Positions 44,841-54,410 of a stretch of DNA of 64,000 bases are shown here, in pieces. The translations under genes were made by a program, and so were the position numbers. Below the pieces are notes generated by a model. It made no database searches and was not told where the DNA came from. It saw nothing but the letters and a program-made list of their open reading frames with translations. The stretch is from NCBI RefSeq assembly GCF_021249345.1, contig NZ_CP089588.1, positions 2,480,001-2,544,000 on the forward strand, in the 5' to 3' direction. The first letter of the stretch is position 1; every line of letters begins with the position of its first letter. The stretch is from Halobacterium wangiae. Lineage in GTDB: Archaea > Halobacteriota > Halobacteria > Halobacteriales > Halobacteriaceae.

Positions 44841-45587
44841 TTACAGGTACGAGGAGTCCCAGCGCGTCGCCTTCCGCTGGTTCCCGCAGTCCTCGCAGTG
44901 GACGCGCCCCATCGAGTCCATCGACGTGTTGATGGACTGGCAGTTCGCGCAGTAGAACCCGTACTTGCTCTCCCGGTTCTCGTTCCGGTAGGCCGTGTAG
45001 AACGGTGCCTTCGACCCGCGCTCGCGCTCGTCGAACGCTACGAACATGGGTCCCGCGGCGGTCTCGACCCGTTCGGTGAGTTCGGCGCTCGACCCGCCTC
45101 CGGGGACTTTCACGTACAGGTGTTCGGTGTAGTCGTTGCCGGCGACGTCGACGGAGTGCTCGCCGGTGCGAGCGTAGCCGTGGGCCTGGTAGAACTGGTT
45201 GCCCTCGTCGTTCGCGGCGAGCACGCGCCCCTCGATGCGGTTCGCGCCGGATTTTGTCAGTGCCGCTTCCGTCCGTTCGAGCAGCCGGACCCCGAACCCG
45301 CGGTCGCGGTAGTCCGGGTGGACGTGGAGCCACTCGATGGCGGCCGCGGCGTCGCCGTCGAACTCGCTCTCGGAGAACGCGACCACCTCGTCGCCGTCCG
45401 CGAGGACGAGGTACTGGACGCCGTCGTCGTCGAGTCGGTCGGCGAGCCGCTCGTCCTGGTACCACTCCTCGGCGGCCGTCCTGACGATGTCCTCCCCCAG
45501 TGCGTCCGCGTACGTGGCCTCCAGGGACGCGTCCGCCACGCGCCGGATGCCGTCCCTGTCAGCAGTGGTGGCTTCTCGAACGTCCAT
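44841..45587 (-). CDS. GNAT acetyltransferase fused to a DUF5816-like zinc-binding domain
   Basis: A 248-residue protein. Residues about 1-160 are a GNAT domain with IEWLHVHPDYRDRGFGVRLL carrying the acetyl-CoA-binding R-x-x-G-x-G loop. Residues about 165-248 form a second domain with a beta-rich part (GPMFVAFDERERGSKAPFYT) and a zinc ribbon: two CxxC pairs, in FYCANCQ and VHCEDCG. This second part resembles the haloarchaeal DUF5816. The acyl acceptor is unknown. An AT-rich box at 45611-45618 (tacaaata read on minus) is 28 nt upstream of the ATG. Confidence 0.78.
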   Translation of the reverse strand: MDVREATTADRDGIRRVADASLEATYADALGEDIVRTAAEEWYQDERLADRLDDDGVQYLVLADGDEVVAFSESEFDGDAAAAIEWLHVHPDYRDRGFGVRLLERTEAALTKSGANRIEGRVLAANDEGNQFYQAHGYARTGEHSVDVAGNDYTEHLYVKVPGGGSSAELTERVETAAGPMFVAFDERERGSKAPFYTAYRNENRESKYGFYCANCQSINTSMDSMGRVHCEDCGNQRKATRWDSSYL

Positions 45588-45938: not shown

Positions 45939-45966
45939 GGTCGTCGGTAAGCACCCGAGTGAGTAG

Positions 45967-45972
45967 CCTTTT
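45967..45972. promoter_or_regulatory. AT-rich box shared by two divergent small genes
   Basis: cctttt (and its complement) is centred 28 nt before the ATG at 45998 on the plus strand and 31 nt before the start at 45938 on the minus strand. It is the only AT-rich element in a GC-rich gap and can serve both directions. Confidence 0.4.
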
Positions 45973-45997
45973 GCGGTGTCACTTCCAACCCCGAACC

Positions 45998-46084
45998 ATG
46001 GACGACAAAGAGATACTGCTGCTGGTGCTTGCGGCGATCGCGGTGTTGATGTTCCTCACGGGCTTCGTGCTCGTCCTCGCGTAG
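45998..46084 (+). CDS. 28-residue single-span membrane protein next to cytochrome oxidase subunit I
   Basis: A frame of 28 residues: MDDKEILLLVLAAIAVLMF plus TGFVLVLA. It has an acidic N-terminal tail, then one hydrophobic segment to the end, as in small respiratory subunits. Support: an ATG with no leader (TATA-like box 28 nt upstream), a clean stop, a position between two genes of the oxidase region, and an amino-acid composition expected of a membrane helix rather than of shadow frames. Small subunits of heme-copper oxidases (for example the 34-residue subunit IIa of the Thermus ba3 enzyme) look similar; homology is not claimed. It is convergent with the subunit I gene (28 nt between stops). 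Confidence 0.6.
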   Translation: MDDKEILLLVLAAIAVLMFLTGFVLVLA

Positions 46085-46112: not shown

Positions 46113-47846
46113 TCAGTCGGCGGACTGCGGCTCCTCGTCGTCGCCGCCGTCCGGGACCGGGCTCTTGCGCTTGTTGTCGAACCAGGTCCACTCCTTCGTG
46201 AACTGGTCGGTGGACTCGAGGTCCCACGGGTCTGCACTGTCGACTTTCGCCCCCTCCATCCAGGAGGTGACCATGTTCCACAGCCAGAACAGCGTCCCGA
46301 TGCCCATCAGGAAGGCGCCGACGGTGGCGAGCTGGTGGCCGGTCGTGAACTGCGTGAGGAACGTCGCGTACCGACGCGGCATCCCACCGTAGCCGAGCCA
46401 CAGCATCGCCAGGAACGTCAGGTTCGACCCGACGAGCGCGGTCCAGAAGTGGGCGTGCGCGAGACTCTTCTGGTACATCCGGCCGGTGATCATCGGGAAC
46501 CAGTAGTAGGTCCCCGCGAACAGCGCGAAGCCGATGGCGCCGAAGACGATGAAGTGGAAGTGTCCGACGACGTAGTACGTGTCGTGCAGGATGAGGTCGA
46601 CGGGGACAGCGGCGAGGAACACGCCGGTGACACCGCCGATGATGAAGTTCTGGATGAACCCGATGCAGAACAGCATCGGCGCGGTGAGACGGAGGTTCCC
46701 GTTCCACATGGTCGTGATCCAGTTGAACACCTTCACCGCGGAGGGGATCGCGATGGCGAGCGACACCGCCATGAACGAGGCCCGCAGGCGCGGGTCGATG
46801 CCGGTGGCGAACATGTGGTGGGCCCACACGCCGAAGCTCAGCACGCCGATGGCGAGCGTCGAGTAGACGACGAACTTGAAGCCGAACAGCTTCCGGCCCG
46901 CGAACTTCGGCAGGATGAGGCTGACCAGCCCCATCGGCGGGAGGACGAGGATGTACACCTCGGGGTGACCGAAGAACCAGAAGAGGTGTTGCCAGAGGAT
47001 GGGGTCTCCGCCACCGACAGTGAAGAACGTGGTGCCGAAGTTCCGGTCGAGCAGCAACATGATGAGCGCGCTCCCCAGCAGCGGGAACGCGAACAGGATG
47101 AGCCCGGACTGCGTGAGCATCGTCCACGAGAAGATGTCGAGGCTGGGCCAGCCGACGTCGTCGCCGCGCTCGTTGAAGATGGTCGCGATGAAGTTGATCG
47201 CACCCATCGTCGCGGAGACGCCCGTGAGGTGGAGACCGAGTAGCATCATGTCGATGGCGGGACTCGGCATCTGGATCGACAGCGGCGTGTACATCGTCCA
47301 CGACGTCGCCGCGGGGTCGACCCCCAGCGGCTGGAGGAAGAAGCCGGCCCAGATGAGGACGGCGCCCGGCGGGAGCAGCCAGAACGCGATGGCGTTGATG
47401 CGCGGGAACGCCATGTCGTCGGCGCCGATGAGCAGCGGGATGAAGTAGTTCGCGAAGGCGGCGATCATCGGCGTCCCGAAGAGGAACAGCATCGTGATGC
47501 CGTGACTGGTTAGGAAGCCGTTGTACAGCTGCGGGTCGACGAGGTTGACACCCGGTGCGACGAGCTCGATCCGCATGATGAGGACGGCGATACCACCCCA
47601 CGCGAACGCGAGCGTCCCGTAGATGCCGTAGAGGATGCCGATGTCCTTGTGGTCGACTGTCGTGAACCACCTGATGATACCGCCCGGTTTCTCTTCGTGC
47701 CCGTGTTCGGCGCGTTCTCCGTACGCACCGCCGACGTCACTGAGGGGCGTGTACGACCGCCAGTCCTCCAGACGCGCGAGGAAGGCGGCCACGGCGACGA
47801 GAAGGACGCCCATCAGCACGGTGAGCACGAGTGATGACGTGGCCAT
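46113..47846 (-). CDS. coxA: Heme-copper oxidase (aa3-type, A1-like), subunit I
   Basis: A 577-residue membrane protein with 12 or more hydrophobic segments that reduces O2 to water. It carries a low-spin heme and a heme-Cu(B) centre. Helix VI has WFFGHPEVYILVLPP: the HPEVY includes the Cu(B) His, the cross-linked Tyr and the Glu of the D-pathway, so it is A1-type. The dihistidine WAHHMFATG and the heme-binding VGHFHFIVFGAI are intact. The start region has about 60 residues that include the first helix and a His/Glu-rich stretch (AEHGHEEKPGG). A TATA-like box on the minus strand (47870-47876) lies about 27 nt upstream. Confidence 0.95.
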   Translation of the reverse strand: MATSSLVLTVLMGVLLVAVAAFLARLEDWRSYTPLSDVGGAYGERAEHGHEEKPGGIIRWFTTVDHKDIGILYGIYGTLAFAWGGIAVLIMRIELVAPGVNLVDPQLYNGFLTSHGITMLFLFGTPMIAAFANYFIPLLIGADDMAFPRINAIAFWLLPPGAVLIWAGFFLQPLGVDPAATSWTMYTPLSIQMPSPAIDMMLLGLHLTGVSATMGAINFIATIFNERGDDVGWPSLDIFSWTMLTQSGLILFAFPLLGSALIMLLLDRNFGTTFFTVGGGDPILWQHLFWFFGHPEVYILVLPPMGLVSLILPKFAGRKLFGFKFVVYSTLAIGVLSFGVWAHHMFATGIDPRLRASFMAVSLAIAIPSAVKVFNWITTMWNGNLRLTAPMLFCIGFIQNFIIGGVTGVFLAAVPVDLILHDTYYVVGHFHFIVFGAIGFALFAGTYYWFPMITGRMYQKSLAHAHFWTALVGSNLTFLAMLWLGYGGMPRRYATFLTQFTTGHQLATVGAFLMGIGTLFWLWNMVTSWMEGAKVDSADPWDLESTDQFTKEWTWFDNKRKSPVPDGGDDEEPQSAD

Positions 47847-47991: not shown

Positions 47992-48216
47992 CTACTCCCC
48001 GCCCTCGATCTTCACGGCCGCCACGTAGGTGAGGACGGCGAGCGCGAGGAACGTGAACAGCATCAGGCCGTGGGAGACGACGACCAGCAGCGGGTTGTCG
48101 AAGCCCCACGGGTTCACGACGAGGTAGCCGACGATGAAGAACGCGAGGATGAACAGTGGAACGATGTTCACCGTCAGGTCGAGGAGCGTGTCCTTGTCGA
48201 AGACGCTGGAGTTCAT
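47992..48216 (-). CDS. Small two-helix membrane protein (DUF6684-like)
   Basis: A 74-residue protein with a short acidic head (MNSSVFDKDTLLDLTV) and two hydrophobic segments (about 14-36 and 45-66) that end in a KIEGGE tail. The pattern resembles the haloarchaeal DUF6684 proteins encoded near terminal oxidases. The start is fixed by an AT-rich aaatata box at 48241-48247 on the minus strand, 28 nt upstream. It may be a structural or assembly subunit of the oxidase. Confidence 0.68.
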   Translation of the reverse strand: MNSSVFDKDTLLDLTVNIVPLFILAFFIVGYLVVNPWGFDNPLLVVVSHGLMLFTFLALAVLTYVAAVKIEGGE

Positions 48217-48257: not shown

Positions 48258-48620
48258 TCAGAGCCGCTCGGTCTCGTAGAGGAACGCCGCCACCGCACCG
48301 CTGGCGACGACCACCGCGCTGCCGGTGAGGGCGAGTCCACGGGCCTCGGCGGCCGTGCCGGTGTAGAGCGCGACGCCGAACGCGCCGAAGACGACGGCGA
48401 TGCCCAGCGCGGGCTTCCACAGCGAGTCCGAGAACCCCGACTCGCGGAGGATACCGACGACGCTCACCGCGAACAGCAACAGGCCACCCACCGCGACGGG
48501 GAGCAGGCCGTCGAAGACGATGCCGATCTCGGAGGTGACGATGCCGAGCACGAGCGGAATCGGCCACGGACTGGCGCGCGTGTACTGCTCGCTCAACCCT
48601 GGCTCCGTTGGTTCGGCCAT
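48258..48620 (-). CDS. Hypothetical membrane protein of the oxidase region
   Basis: A 120-residue protein with four hydrophobic segments (about 18-40, 42-62, 68-88 and 95-116) and short loops. A SEQYTRASPWPIPLVLG start precedes the first. Haloarchaeal genomes keep similar genes next to coxA, but no function is known and no cofactor ligands are seen. The ATG at 48620 follows a TATA-like ctttctaac read on the minus strand (48642-48650). Confidence 0.65.
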   Translation of the reverse strand: MAEPTEPGLSEQYTRASPWPIPLVLGIVTSEIGIVFDGLLPVAVGGLLLFAVSVVGILRESGFSDSLWKPALGIAVVFGAFGVALYTGTAAEARGLALTGSAVVVASGAVAAFLYETERL

Positions 48621-48927: not shown

Positions 48928-50301
48928 TCAGAGGAACGGTGGGGTGACTTCCGGCTGGCCGACGATCCAGAGACTCGCCATCGTGTACAGTATCATCACG
49001 GCCGTGAGCGGGTACTGGCTCCGGATGGCCTGCAGGCGTCCGGGGAACTGGTCGTAGGCGGTGCCGTGGGCCACCCAGATTGCGAGCAGGTGGCCCAGCA
49101 GGACGGCGGCGACGCCGACCGCCGAGAGCCACCCGGGCAGCACGAGCGTCCGCGCAGTCGGCGGGTTCAGTGGCGCTAACAGCGCACCGACGAGCGCGGG
49201 CGACAGCGAGAGGAAGTAGACGAGGTAGTGCGCGAGGTGGTAGCCGGCCGCGATGGCCAGCAGTGACGGGACGAACCGGACGGCGAGGGTTCGCGCGTCG
49301 GTGTACGTCGGCGCGGTCTCGCGGGCGGCGTGCGCTGACCACCAGTAGAGCCGGTGGAACCCGAGGAAGCCGACGAACAGCGCCGCGGGGTACAGCACCA
49401 GTGCGGGCACACCGAGTGGGACCACTACGCGCGCGAGCGACGCCCACGCGGGCGTGGCGACGAGGCCGTCGAACGTCGTCCCCCACAGCAGCGCGACGAC
49501 GAACGCGACGTCTCCCGGCGTGGAGACGATGCTGTCGGTCAGCCGCGCCGCGGGTAGCCGGAGCCGGAGTCCGTCTTCGGTCCGCTGGACGGGAGCGACG
49601 GCGCCGTACGTGCGGAACAGTCGGGCCAGCGGGTCTACCCGGTCGAACCACTCCCCGTGACCGACTGCCAGTACGCCGACGGTCGCGACGGCGAGGTACC
49701 CCAGTGCGGCGGTGGCGAGTAGCGGCGGGTCCTCCGCGAGCGGGCTGACGACCTCCACCCAGACGAGCACGAGCAGGAAGACGGCGCTCGTCCACGCCGC
49801 GCGGCCCGGCGACAGGTCGCGGATCGGCTCCGGGGCGACGCGAGCCACCGGGCGGGTGAGCGTGCGGAACGGGTCGACCGCCGGCCACGCGTTCCCGACG
49901 AGGTAGGTCGCCATCACGAGCCCCGCCCACCAGCCCACCCAGACGAGCATGATGGCGGCGTTCCGCAGCGAGTCCGAGGGGCCGAACAGGCCGGTGACCA
50001 CGACACCCACGAAGCCGACGAGACCGGCGACGCGACCGACCCACGCGAGCAGGCGCCGCGGGGCGGGGAGTCGGCGCGTCCAGCCGTGGACTGCCGCGAC
50101 GAACGCGCGGTCGGTGACGAAACTCGCCAGCAGGAACGACGCGCCGACAACGGCGCCCCCGGTCGAGAGGAACAGCCACGTCGGGACGGCGAGTTCCTGC
50201 TGGGTGGCGTCCCGGAGGGTGCCGCCGTGGGCGAGCGCCACCCCGCAGATGGCGGCGAGTCCGACGACGACACCCAGCGCGCGAGCCCCGCGACGGTACA
50301 T
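48928..50301 (-). CDS. Hypothetical polytopic membrane protein of the oxidase cluster
   Basis: A 457-residue protein with about 10 hydrophobic segments. An N-terminal segment (residues 5-25) looks like a signal or first helix and is followed by an external HGGTLRDATQQELAVPTW region. Large loops carry WPAVDPFRTLTRPVARVAP and GEWFDRVDPLARLFRTYGAVAPV, which look like a repeated W/F-x-D-P-x-R-x-L motif, suggesting two related halves. Similar proteins with unknown function occur in actinobacteria and haloarchaea. It leads a same-strand group that continues with the zinc-finger protein. Divergent from subunit III. Confidence 0.6.
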   Translation of the reverse strand: MYRRGARALGVVVGLAAICGVALAHGGTLRDATQQELAVPTWLFLSTGGAVVGASFLLASFVTDRAFVAAVHGWTRRLPAPRRLLAWVGRVAGLVGFVGVVVTGLFGPSDSLRNAAIMLVWVGWWAGLVMATYLVGNAWPAVDPFRTLTRPVARVAPEPIRDLSPGRAAWTSAVFLLVLVWVEVVSPLAEDPPLLATAALGYLAVATVGVLAVGHGEWFDRVDPLARLFRTYGAVAPVQRTEDGLRLRLPAARLTDSIVSTPGDVAFVVALLWGTTFDGLVATPAWASLARVVVPLGVPALVLYPAALFVGFLGFHRLYWWSAHAARETAPTYTDARTLAVRFVPSLLAIAAGYHLAHYLVYFLSLSPALVGALLAPLNPPTARTLVLPGWLSAVGVAAVLLGHLLAIWVAHGTAYDQFPGRLQAIRSQYPLTAVMILYTMASLWIVGQPEVTPPFL

Positions 50302-50379: not shown

Positions 50380-50400
50380 CTCGCCCCGCAAGCCGATTGT

Positions 50401-51258
50401 ATGAGCGTAGCGGACGATTCGACTGACGACCACGGCCACCACTTACCGGCCGTGGAGGACTGGCCGAAGGGGTTCGGTGAGGCCAGCTGGTGGCCCTTCG
50501 TTACTGCACTCGGCGCCTCGGGATTCTACATCGGCGCCGCCCTGTACGTCCTCGGACAGGGGTCCAGCGAGCTGGTCGGCCCGACCGTGGGGCCAGCCGT
50601 CTTAGTGGGGAGCACGTTCGTCTTCCTCGCTGGGCTGTACGGCTGGGTGTACCACGCCTTCGTGAAACACTTCTGGAGCCGCGAGACCGGCGAGAACAAG
50701 GCACTCCGCTGGGGGATGATCCTGTTCCTCGGGACGGAGATCGCGACGTTCGGCGCCGGCTTCGTCTACTACTTCTTCATCCGCGTGGGTGGGAAGTGGG
50801 CGGGCGCCAACGTGCCAGAGGGTTTCCTCGGCGCGCTCGTCATCGCCAACACGGTCATCCTGGTGATCTCCAGTTTCACGCTGCACTACGCGCACGTCGC
50901 GCTCCGGAACAACAACCGTTCGCGGTTCCTCGGCCTGCTGGTGACGACGCTCGTGCTCGGCGCCGTGTTCATCGCCGGACAGATCTACGAGTACTACGAG
51001 TTCATCGTCCACGAGGGACTGACGTTCTCCGGCGGCGTCTTCGAGAGCGCGTTCTTCGGACTGACGGGCCTCCACGGGCTCCACGTCTCCCTGGGCGCCG
51101 TCCTCATCGGCATCGTCACGTGGCGCGCGTTCAAGGGGCAGTACTCCGCGGAACGCCACACCTCCGTGAGCACGGTCTCGATGTACTGGCACTTCGTCGA
51201 CGCTGTCTGGATCTTCCTCGTCGTCGTGCTGTACGCCGGCGCCGTCATCAACATCTGA
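50401..51258 (+). CDS. coxC: Heme-copper oxidase, subunit III
   Basis: A 285-residue membrane protein with about seven hydrophobic segments. The family core is visible in ASWWPFVTALGASGFYIG (the first helices), RWGMILFLGTEIATFGAGFVYYF with the conserved Glu near helix III, and GQIYEYYEFI and FGLTGLHGLHVSLGA with the conserved His/Gly. The last helix has VSMYWHFVDAVWIFLVVVLY. It belongs to the A-type oxidase and has no redox cofactor. It is transcribed away from the 457-residue gene. The T-rich sequence beyond its stop (51276-51281) may double as terminator and as the birA TATA box. Confidence 0.95.
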   Translation: MSVADDSTDDHGHHLPAVEDWPKGFGEASWWPFVTALGASGFYIGAALYVLGQGSSELVGPTVGPAVLVGSTFVFLAGLYGWVYHAFVKHFWSRETGENKALRWGMILFLGTEIATFGAGFVYYFFIRVGGKWAGANVPEGFLGALVIANTVILVISSFTLHYAHVALRNNNRSRFLGLLVTTLVLGAVFIAGQIYEYYEFIVHEGLTFSGGVFESAFFGLTGLHGLHVSLGAVLIGIVTWRAFKGQYSAERHTSVSTVSMYWHFVDAVWIFLVVVLYAGAVINI

Positions 51259-52939: not shown

Positions 52940-53015
52940 GGTGCTGAATCGACCCGTCCGCGAGTCGGACAGGCTAAGTGCACCCAACCGTAACCCACCG
53001 AAGAGAGGGACGTTC

Positions 53016-54410
53016 GTGACTCAGGACACACCAGACCGATTCACCGCGCTGCTCGCCGCGGCCGCGATGGGCGTGTACACGCTGCTCGTCGTCGGTGCGA
53101 CGACTGCGCTGACGGGTGCGGCGGAGTCGTGCCGCTCGTGGCCCACCTGCGGCGGGCGCTGGTTCGCGCTGGATTCGCTGTCGCTGGCCATCGTCTGGGG
53201 CCACCGCACCGCCGCCCTCGTCACCGGCGTGCTCGTCGTCACCGTCGCCGTACTCGCGTGGTACCGCGGCGAATCGCGCCGCGTTCGAGCGGCCGCGACG
53301 ACGGCCGTCGTCGCGTACCCCGTGCAGGTCGCGGTCGGCGCGTTCACCGCGACGAACGGCGCGTCCGCCGCGCTCGCCGGCGCCCACCTGGCGCTGGGAG
53401 TCGGCATCTTCGCCGCGCTCGTGCTCGCACTCGCGTGGACGCTGGAGGCCCAGACCGGCCACCTGCCGTCCGCGGAGTGGGAGGGCGAACCCCGCAACGA
53501 CGACGAGAGTGCGCCACCGGTCTCCGGACCACTCGCGACGCCGTACGCCTACTTCCGGCTGATGAAGCCGCGGCTGATGTGGCTGCTCTGTCTCGTCGCG
53601 TCCGCGGGGATGGCGCTGGCCGCCAGCGCTGCGCCGTCTGCCACCGGTCCCGCGCTCCGGACGACGACGATTCTCGGGACGCTCGGCGGCGGTGTGCTCG
53701 CCATCGGCGCGTCGGGGACGTTCAACCACGTCCTCGAACGCGAGAAGGACAAGAAGATGGCGCGCACGGACGACCGCCCCATCGCCACCGACCGCATCCC
53801 AATCCGGAACGCGATCGCCTTCGGCCTCCTCCTCGCGGCGGCGTCGCTGGTCGCGTTCTACTCGGTGAACGCGCTCACCGCCGTCCTCGGACTCACCGCC
53901 ATCGTGTTCTACTCGGTGATCTACACGCTCGTGTTGAAACCGAACACCCGCCAGAGCACGGTCATCGGCGGCGCCGCGGGAGCGCTCCCGGCGCTCATCG
54001 GGTGGGCGGCCGTCACCGGGGACGTCGGCGTCGCGGGCCTCGCGCTCGCCGTCGTCATCTTCCTGTGGACGCCCGCGCACTTCTACAACCTCGCGCTCGC
54101 GTACAAGGACGACTACGAGCGCGGCGGCTTCCCGCTGATGCCGGTCGTGAGCGGCGAGGCTACCACGCGGAAACACATCGTCTACTACCTCGGCGCGACG
54201 CTCGTCTCCGCGGTGGCGCTCGCCGCGCTCACCGACCTGGGCGCGCTGTTCGCCGGGACGACGGTCGCACTCGGCGCGGTGTTCCTCTACTTCGCCGTGC
54301 GACTGCACCGCGAGCGCGACCGCTCGGCGGCGATGCGCACGTTCCACGCGTCGAACGCCTACCTCGGCTGCCTGCTCGTCGCAGTCGTCCTCGACGCGAT
54401 GGTGGTCTGA
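53016..54410 (+). CDS. ctaB: CtaA-half fused to protoheme IX farnesyltransferase (heme O synthase)
   Basis: A 464-residue membrane protein of two parts. Residues about 10-130 have four hydrophobic segments like half of a heme A synthase (CtaA): a Cys-containing first loop (AESCRSWPTCGGRW), and His residues in VWGHRTAALVTG and AGAHLALGVG, the likely heme ligands. Residues about 175-464 are the UbiA-type prenyltransferase CtaB, with GTFNHVLEREKDKKMARTDDRP (the Asp-rich motif; the first Asp is Glu) and ALAYKDDYERGGFPLMP. It farnesylates heme B to heme O. This fusion is known in haloarchaea. The GTG at 53016 is the likely start. Confidence 0.9.
   Translation: MTQDTPDRFTALLAAAAMGVYTLLVVGATTALTGAAESCRSWPTCGGRWFALDSLSLAIVWGHRTAALVTGVLVVTVAVLAWYRGESRRVRAAATTAVVAYPVQVAVGAFTATNGASAALAGAHLALGVGIFAALVLALAWTLEAQTGHLPSAEWEGEPRNDDESAPPVSGPLATPYAYFRLMKPRLMWLLCLVASAGMALAASAAPSATGPALRTTTILGTLGGGVLAIGASGTFNHVLEREKDKKMARTDDRPIATDRIPIRNAIAFGLLLAAASLVAFYSVNALTAVLGLTAIVFYSVIYTLVLKPNTRQSTVIGGAAGALPALIGWAAVTGDVGVAGLALAVVIFLWTPAHFYNLALAYKDDYERGGFPLMPVVSGEATTRKHIVYYLGATLVSAVALAALTDLGALFAGTTVALGAVFLYFAVRLHRERDRSAAMRTFHASNAYLGCLLVAVVLDAMVV

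Follow-up and report, generated by a model that had tools for sequence, protein, structure and literature searches.

A leaderless 28-codon membrane microprotein gene beside coxA in Halobacterium wangiae and its haloarchaeal family

We analysed a 64,000-nucleotide stretch of the Halobacterium wangiae genome (NZ_CP089588.1, positions 2,480,001 to 2,544,000; hereafter the window), which carries a cytochrome oxidase (cox) gene cluster. Next to coxA lies a 28-codon gene for a microprotein with one predicted membrane helix. The frame is a real gene, and the microprotein represents a real and widespread family missing from family libraries. Throughout the order its presence follows that of the A-type oxidase subunit I, CoxA. 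We lean towards a role as a single-helix accessory subunit of the CoxA-type oxidase, a reading drawn from sequence comparison and weighed below against three alternatives.

A conserved leaderless microprotein gene

The frame at 45998-46084 (+) is composed of an ATG, 27 more codons and a TAG, and encodes the peptide MDDKEILLLVLAAIAVLMFLTGFVLVLA with a calculated mass of about 3,033 Da (Met kept). The acidic N-terminal tail MDDKE is followed by a single hydrophobic stretch, for which hydropathy predicts one helix; Cys and His are both absent. The position, the acidic tail and the single hydrophobic stretch agree exactly with an earlier sequence-only reading of the region (the original prediction), as do the ATG and the clean stop. 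The microprotein stop faces the coxA stop across a gap of 28 bases, the two genes being convergent, and on the other side a DUF7520 gene (97 aa) is divergently oriented with 59 nt of intergenic DNA. The predicted location "between cytochrome oxidase genes" is therefore right as to the cox cluster and wrong as to the flanks, which are coxA and DUF7520 and not two oxidase subunit genes.

A frame of 28 codons is uninformative alone because short frames are common here, about 9 kb of these GC-rich surroundings holding 92 open reading frames (ORFs) that reach 25 aa; it is conservation that decides. Start, stop, length, sequence and position of the microprotein are kept in all 13 Halobacterium genomes. 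Named members of the genus include H. bonnevillei, H. hubeiense and Halobacterium sp. CBA1126. A 20-member profile recovered the microprotein from 280 of the 392 genomes that represent the order, spread over 74 of 95 genera. A wider profile reached 289 genomes and 78 genera, about 18 of its matches being weak (E above 1e-3), and chance could account for part of these. Within the genus, DNA identity is 80% over the ORF, 29% over the next 40 nt and 52% over the preceding 60 nt, and identity at codon positions 1, 2 and 3 of the ORF is 82, 95 and 64%. The pN/pS of 0.26 and dN/dS of about 0.18 indicate purifying selection on the microprotein. Among the loci scored, the start codon is ATG in 106 and GTG in 8, and falls outside the first model column in 9. 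Peptide length is 27-32 across 114 loci, with a family range in haloarchaea of 27 to about 40 residues; the Haloferax homolog, seen in sister species of H. volcanii, has 27 aa. Loss of the start, the stop or the hydrophobic pattern in relatives had been named in advance as what would refute the gene; the comparison was run and conservation held, so that the call of a real small membrane-protein gene is borne out. The gene is presumably translated.

The promoter anatomy matches the published haloarchaeal motifs, a TTWT TATA box and a WW element near -10 (PMC4983044). The TATA-like box predicted 28 nt upstream corresponds to a TTTT core at -29 to -26, which bears out that distance. Across 114 loci, T occupies positions -28, -27 and -26 in 71, 96 and 89%, respectively, and A is over-represented from -11 to -9. 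By sequence, this T-box and the A near -10 point to a leaderless gene, as had been predicted; in Haloferax, leaderless transcripts make up 72% of protein-coding transcripts (PMC4983044). A longer upstream frame opening at GTG 45785 (99 aa) was considered and rejected. The start is placed at 45998 by protein conservation as well as by the promoter, and in several orthologs this frame closes within a few codons. The intergenic segment between the DUF7520 and microprotein starts (45939-45997) holds a single conserved AT-rich element that may serve both directions.

Along the predicted helix, conservation shows a periodicity of 98 degrees (p=0.0025 versus shuffled columns), near the 100 degrees per residue at which an alpha helix turns. 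The conserved face is formed by L7, L11, A15, M18, G22 and L25. One-sided conservation of a helix usually reflects packing against protein.

The family has escaped the databases, in line with the original prediction that so small a gene would easily be missed by annotation. No Pfam or NCBIfam family was matched, and a PDB profile search returned no significant relative of solved structure. In the open literature, with supplementary files unread, no paper was found to name this gene beside HVO_0907 (coxA1). Small proteins of Haloferax volcanii have been surveyed by Ribo-seq and mass spectrometry (MS), and the MS detected only proteins of 31-100 aa (PMC12482152); a 27-aa hydrophobic Haloferax peptide would thus escape detection.

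Co-occurrence with CoxA and its exceptions

Among the 392 genomes, with CoxA presence scored at E<=1e-150, the microprotein and CoxA occur together in 272 and are jointly absent from 106; 8 have the microprotein only and 6 have CoxA only (Fisher p about 1e-77, a value that ignores shared ancestry). The link extends to gene position. Of 80 named CoxA loci (>=70% identity), 65 show the predicted recurrence of the frame nearby, in genera that include Haloferax, Haloarcula, Halorussus, Haladaptatus and Halobaculum. The frame usually lies 20-300 bases beyond the coxA stop in convergent orientation, and is on the same strand in three Halobaculum loci. No microprotein was seen alongside CoxA paralogs (72% and 66% identity), forms of ~40% identity or distant fused CoxA forms. 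None of 20 checked genomes devoid of the microprotein has this CoxA; they contain distant ~40% forms or none. Four of these, from the family to which the window belongs (G014, G020, G021 and G022), have neither a COX1 protein nor the microprotein, and G013, from the genus of G014, has the microprotein and CoxA, the microprotein lying in a stretch with DUF6684, DUF7541, Cox3, Cox2 and CoxA.

Several discordant genomes have a simple explanation. The microprotein is cut by the contig end in G131 and CoxA by a contig edge in G098. In G129 and G157, the neighbour of a 60%-identical CoxA is a diverged copy of the microprotein, MPRKETLGLLLLTVTVGVFVSGFLTAVL being an example; G149 is similar with a weak match, and G202 holds a still weaker candidate. 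Six of the eight microprotein-only genomes have weak matches (E 0.01-0.07) that may be chance, and the other two, G097 and G120, are real. Weak matches of E 0.01-0.1 in CoxA-less genomes are in line with chance, which would yield about 10, and were excluded from the evidence.

An accessory protein dedicated to the CoxA-type oxidase is expected to reside in the coxA neighbourhood, to track CoxA in presence and absence, and never to occur without the oxidase. The first two hold for the microprotein and the third does not, and this is one of several observations that weigh against an oxidase subunit. G097 and G120, from a family of the order denoted f8, keep the microprotein beside DUF6684 without such a CoxA at E<=1e-120, their COX1 proteins being only distant ones. 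Several other f8 genomes hold the microprotein apart from their CoxA; at f8 loci it adjoins DUF6684 and DUF7541 together with a DUF7520-like divergent frame, and coxA is not there. Two plasmid paralogs, on pNG600 and pSTJ003, sit in metal-transport islands with no oxidase gene in the retrieved stretch. Moreover, the microprotein gene is on the strand opposite coxA in most genomes and is therefore not co-transcribed with it there. Given the f8 and plasmid exceptions, the tie between the microprotein and this CoxA is not a strict one, and retention of the microprotein in the absence of this CoxA favours a role in assembly or in metal handling.

The pNG600 paralog is flanked on both sides by DUF7350/Iron_transport genes. 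Nearby are a heavy-metal P-type ATPase and homologs of DUF7410, DUF7541 and the 457-aa protein of the cox cluster; nine plasmid records match this region. Near the pSTJ003 paralog are DUF7520, NosD, an ABC transporter and a heavy-metal P-type ATPase. Both paralogs were found by DNA search, tblastn giving no match, probably owing to masking of the hydrophobic sequence, and both are missing from the PLSDB gene table, which is itself incomplete. As to family f8, loci L124, L109, L080, L084 and L070 keep the flanking gene order, yet no coxA was seen in the interval from the microprotein to DUF6684/DUF7541.

Relation to known oxidase subunits and putative function

The original prediction had likened the microprotein to subunit IIa of the Thermus ba3 oxidase, and this likeness did not survive. 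Subunit IIa supplies the helix missing from the one-helix subunit II of B-type oxidases, was not observed alongside a two-helix subunit II, and is marked by conserved Gly and Trp and a PX1-3G(T/A) motif; its haloarchaeal homologs, CbaD, are a separate family in ba3 operons, the archaeal ones having 53-78 aa (PMC3128077). The microprotein resembles IIa/CbaD in being a small single-helix protein at an oxidase locus that is easily missed by annotation (PMC3128077), but differs in accompanying an A-type oxidase with a two-helix Cox2, in lacking Trp/Pro, in its length of 27-40 aa and in its place beside coxA. Membership of IIa/CbaD was rejected because CoxA is A-type (TIGR02891 match) and Cox2 has both membrane helices, with which the analogy fails. 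It was also rejected on the motif, since Pro occurs in 0 and Trp in 1 of 104 variants; no Pfam match to a IIa/CbaD family model was obtained with the 55 members at E<=1.

Subunit IV of the Paracoccus/Rhodobacter aa3 oxidase is a single helix of about 50 aa. As a one-helix accessory of an A-type oxidase it is a plausible functional analog, although its length and sequence differ and the Pfam subunit IV models gave no match. CcoM of the Pseudomonas stutzeri cbb3 oxidase has 36 aa (PMC10433244). Like CcoM and CydX of cytochrome bd, the microprotein would be a one-helix micro-subunit of a terminal oxidase found late; unlike them, it goes with another oxidase type, and no sequence relation to either was detected. 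The microprotein can be likened to CcoM, CydX, subunit IV and subunit IIa but, by the tests run, belongs to none of them.

One-sided helix conservation together with the genomic link to CoxA is most simply read as the signature of a single-helix accessory subunit that stabilises the CoxA-type oxidase or helps to assemble it, and we hold this to be the better-than-even explanation. The leaderless gene would give rise to a single-pass membrane microprotein that specifically serves the CoxA-type (A-type, aa3-like) heme-copper oxidase. The microprotein would insert into the membrane as one helix, whose conserved face could pack lengthwise against a membrane subunit of the oxidase. The packed helix may then stabilise the oxidase or aid its assembly, like other single-helix oxidase subunits. 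We infer binding partner, stoichiometry and effect alike.

The f8 and plasmid exceptions give real weight to a second, distinctly less probable explanation, in which the microprotein is an assembly or cofactor-delivery factor and not a resident subunit. It would belong to a membrane module with DUF7520, DUF6684, DUF7541 and often DUF7410 and the ~10-helix protein, and this module would help to equip heme-copper oxidases with copper or heme. Such a role is consistent with the persistence of the microprotein, DUF6684 and DUF7541 in f8 genomes without adjacent CoxA, and with the location of the plasmid paralogs near metal-transport genes, P-type ATPases and cox-cluster homologs. However, the chromosomal copy closely tracks CoxA, and metal-transport neighbours were seen only at the plasmid paralogs, which may have changed function. 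The lack of Cys and His leaves the peptide with no obvious metal ligand, which argues against direct metal binding.

The microprotein might instead partner the divergent DUF7520 protein in the membrane, as a regulator or within a two-component complex with only a loose link to the oxidase, possibly from a common promoter region. The divergent DUF7520-microprotein pair is indeed the most constant neighbourhood and is kept where CoxA is gone, and a DUF7520 gene likewise lies close to the pSTJ003 paralog. Yet DUF7520 itself belongs to the cox cluster, and in G013 the microprotein lies beside DUF6684 with no DUF7520 match in the retrieved stretch; we regard this explanation as improbable. That there is no gene at all, the conservation being due to a promoter or a non-coding RNA, is hardly credible: the upstream region is partly conserved too (52%), but the third-position excess, the cross-genus protein conservation, the fixed start and stop and the free downstream flank all speak for coding, the peptide is preserved in copies on plasmids and in other contexts, and there was no Rfam match.

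The surrounding cox cluster and implications

Past coxA, the genes follow in the order DUF6684, DUF7541, DUF7410, the 457-aa protein, Cox3, BirA-like, Cox2 and CtaB-like (Table 1); the BirA, Cox2 and CtaB names were assigned by eye from sequence. Histidines H25, H72, H355, H358, H404 and H412 of the 457-aa protein do not vary among five homologs, which suggests heme or copper binding. The predicted structure of this protein (mean pLDDT 39) was unusable. At its N-terminus the CtaB-like frame carries an additional membrane domain that, by eye, resembles heme A synthase (CtaA), a possible fusion.

Table 1. Features of the microprotein locus and cox cluster (window coordinates) and plasmid paralogs (coordinates of loci L221 and L222).
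Feature	Position	Strand	Remarks
Microprotein gene, 28 codons, MDDKEILLLVLAAIAVLMFLTGFVLVLA-TAG	45998..46084	+	ORF, orthologs, coding constraint
TTTT core of TATA-like box, in CTTTTG T-run	45969..45972	+	-29 to -26 from ATG
AA (WW) element	45987..45988	+	-11/-10; fits transcript starting at ATG (leaderless)
GNAT acetyltransferase fused to C-terminal DUF5816 domain	44841-45587	-	
DUF7520 membrane protein, 97 aa	45645..45938	-	PF24364; similar divergent frame in most loci
CoxA, A-type cytochrome c oxidase subunit I	46113..47846	-	PF00115; TIGR02891 CtaD_CoxA
DUF6684, two-helix membrane protein	47995..48216	-	PF20389; adjoins microprotein where coxA gone
DUF7541 membrane protein	48258..48620	-	PF24396
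457-aa membrane protein, about 10 hydrophobic segments	48928-50301	-	no Pfam family
Cox3	50389..51258	+	PF00510
Cox2, signal-like segment and two membrane helices	52139..52987	-	
CtaB-like heme O synthase frame	52941-54410	+	named by eye
Paralog MEEKHLLLATLLGVVSLLVLTGFVVRLA, Haloarcula marismortui pNG600	L221:5452-5535		DNA search
Second plasmid paralog, Halobacterium hubeiense pSTJ003	L222:6509-6595		DNA search

A broader and more speculative proposal, which we rate as rather unlikely, is that the microprotein family is a near-universal CoxA-oxidase accessory and that, with DUF7520, DUF6684, DUF7541 and the histidine-bearing ~10-helix protein, it could constitute an unrecognised archaeal machine for building heme-copper oxidases, with copies also on plasmids that carry metal-transport genes.

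A gene in most genomes of an archaeal order has apparently been overlooked because it has only 28 codons and is too small for routine proteomics. The microprotein alignments provide a clean profile for annotating the family. If the microprotein is a component of the oxidase, accounts of the haloarchaeal aa3-type enzyme miss a part, and the families around coxA without assigned function would gain a testable role.
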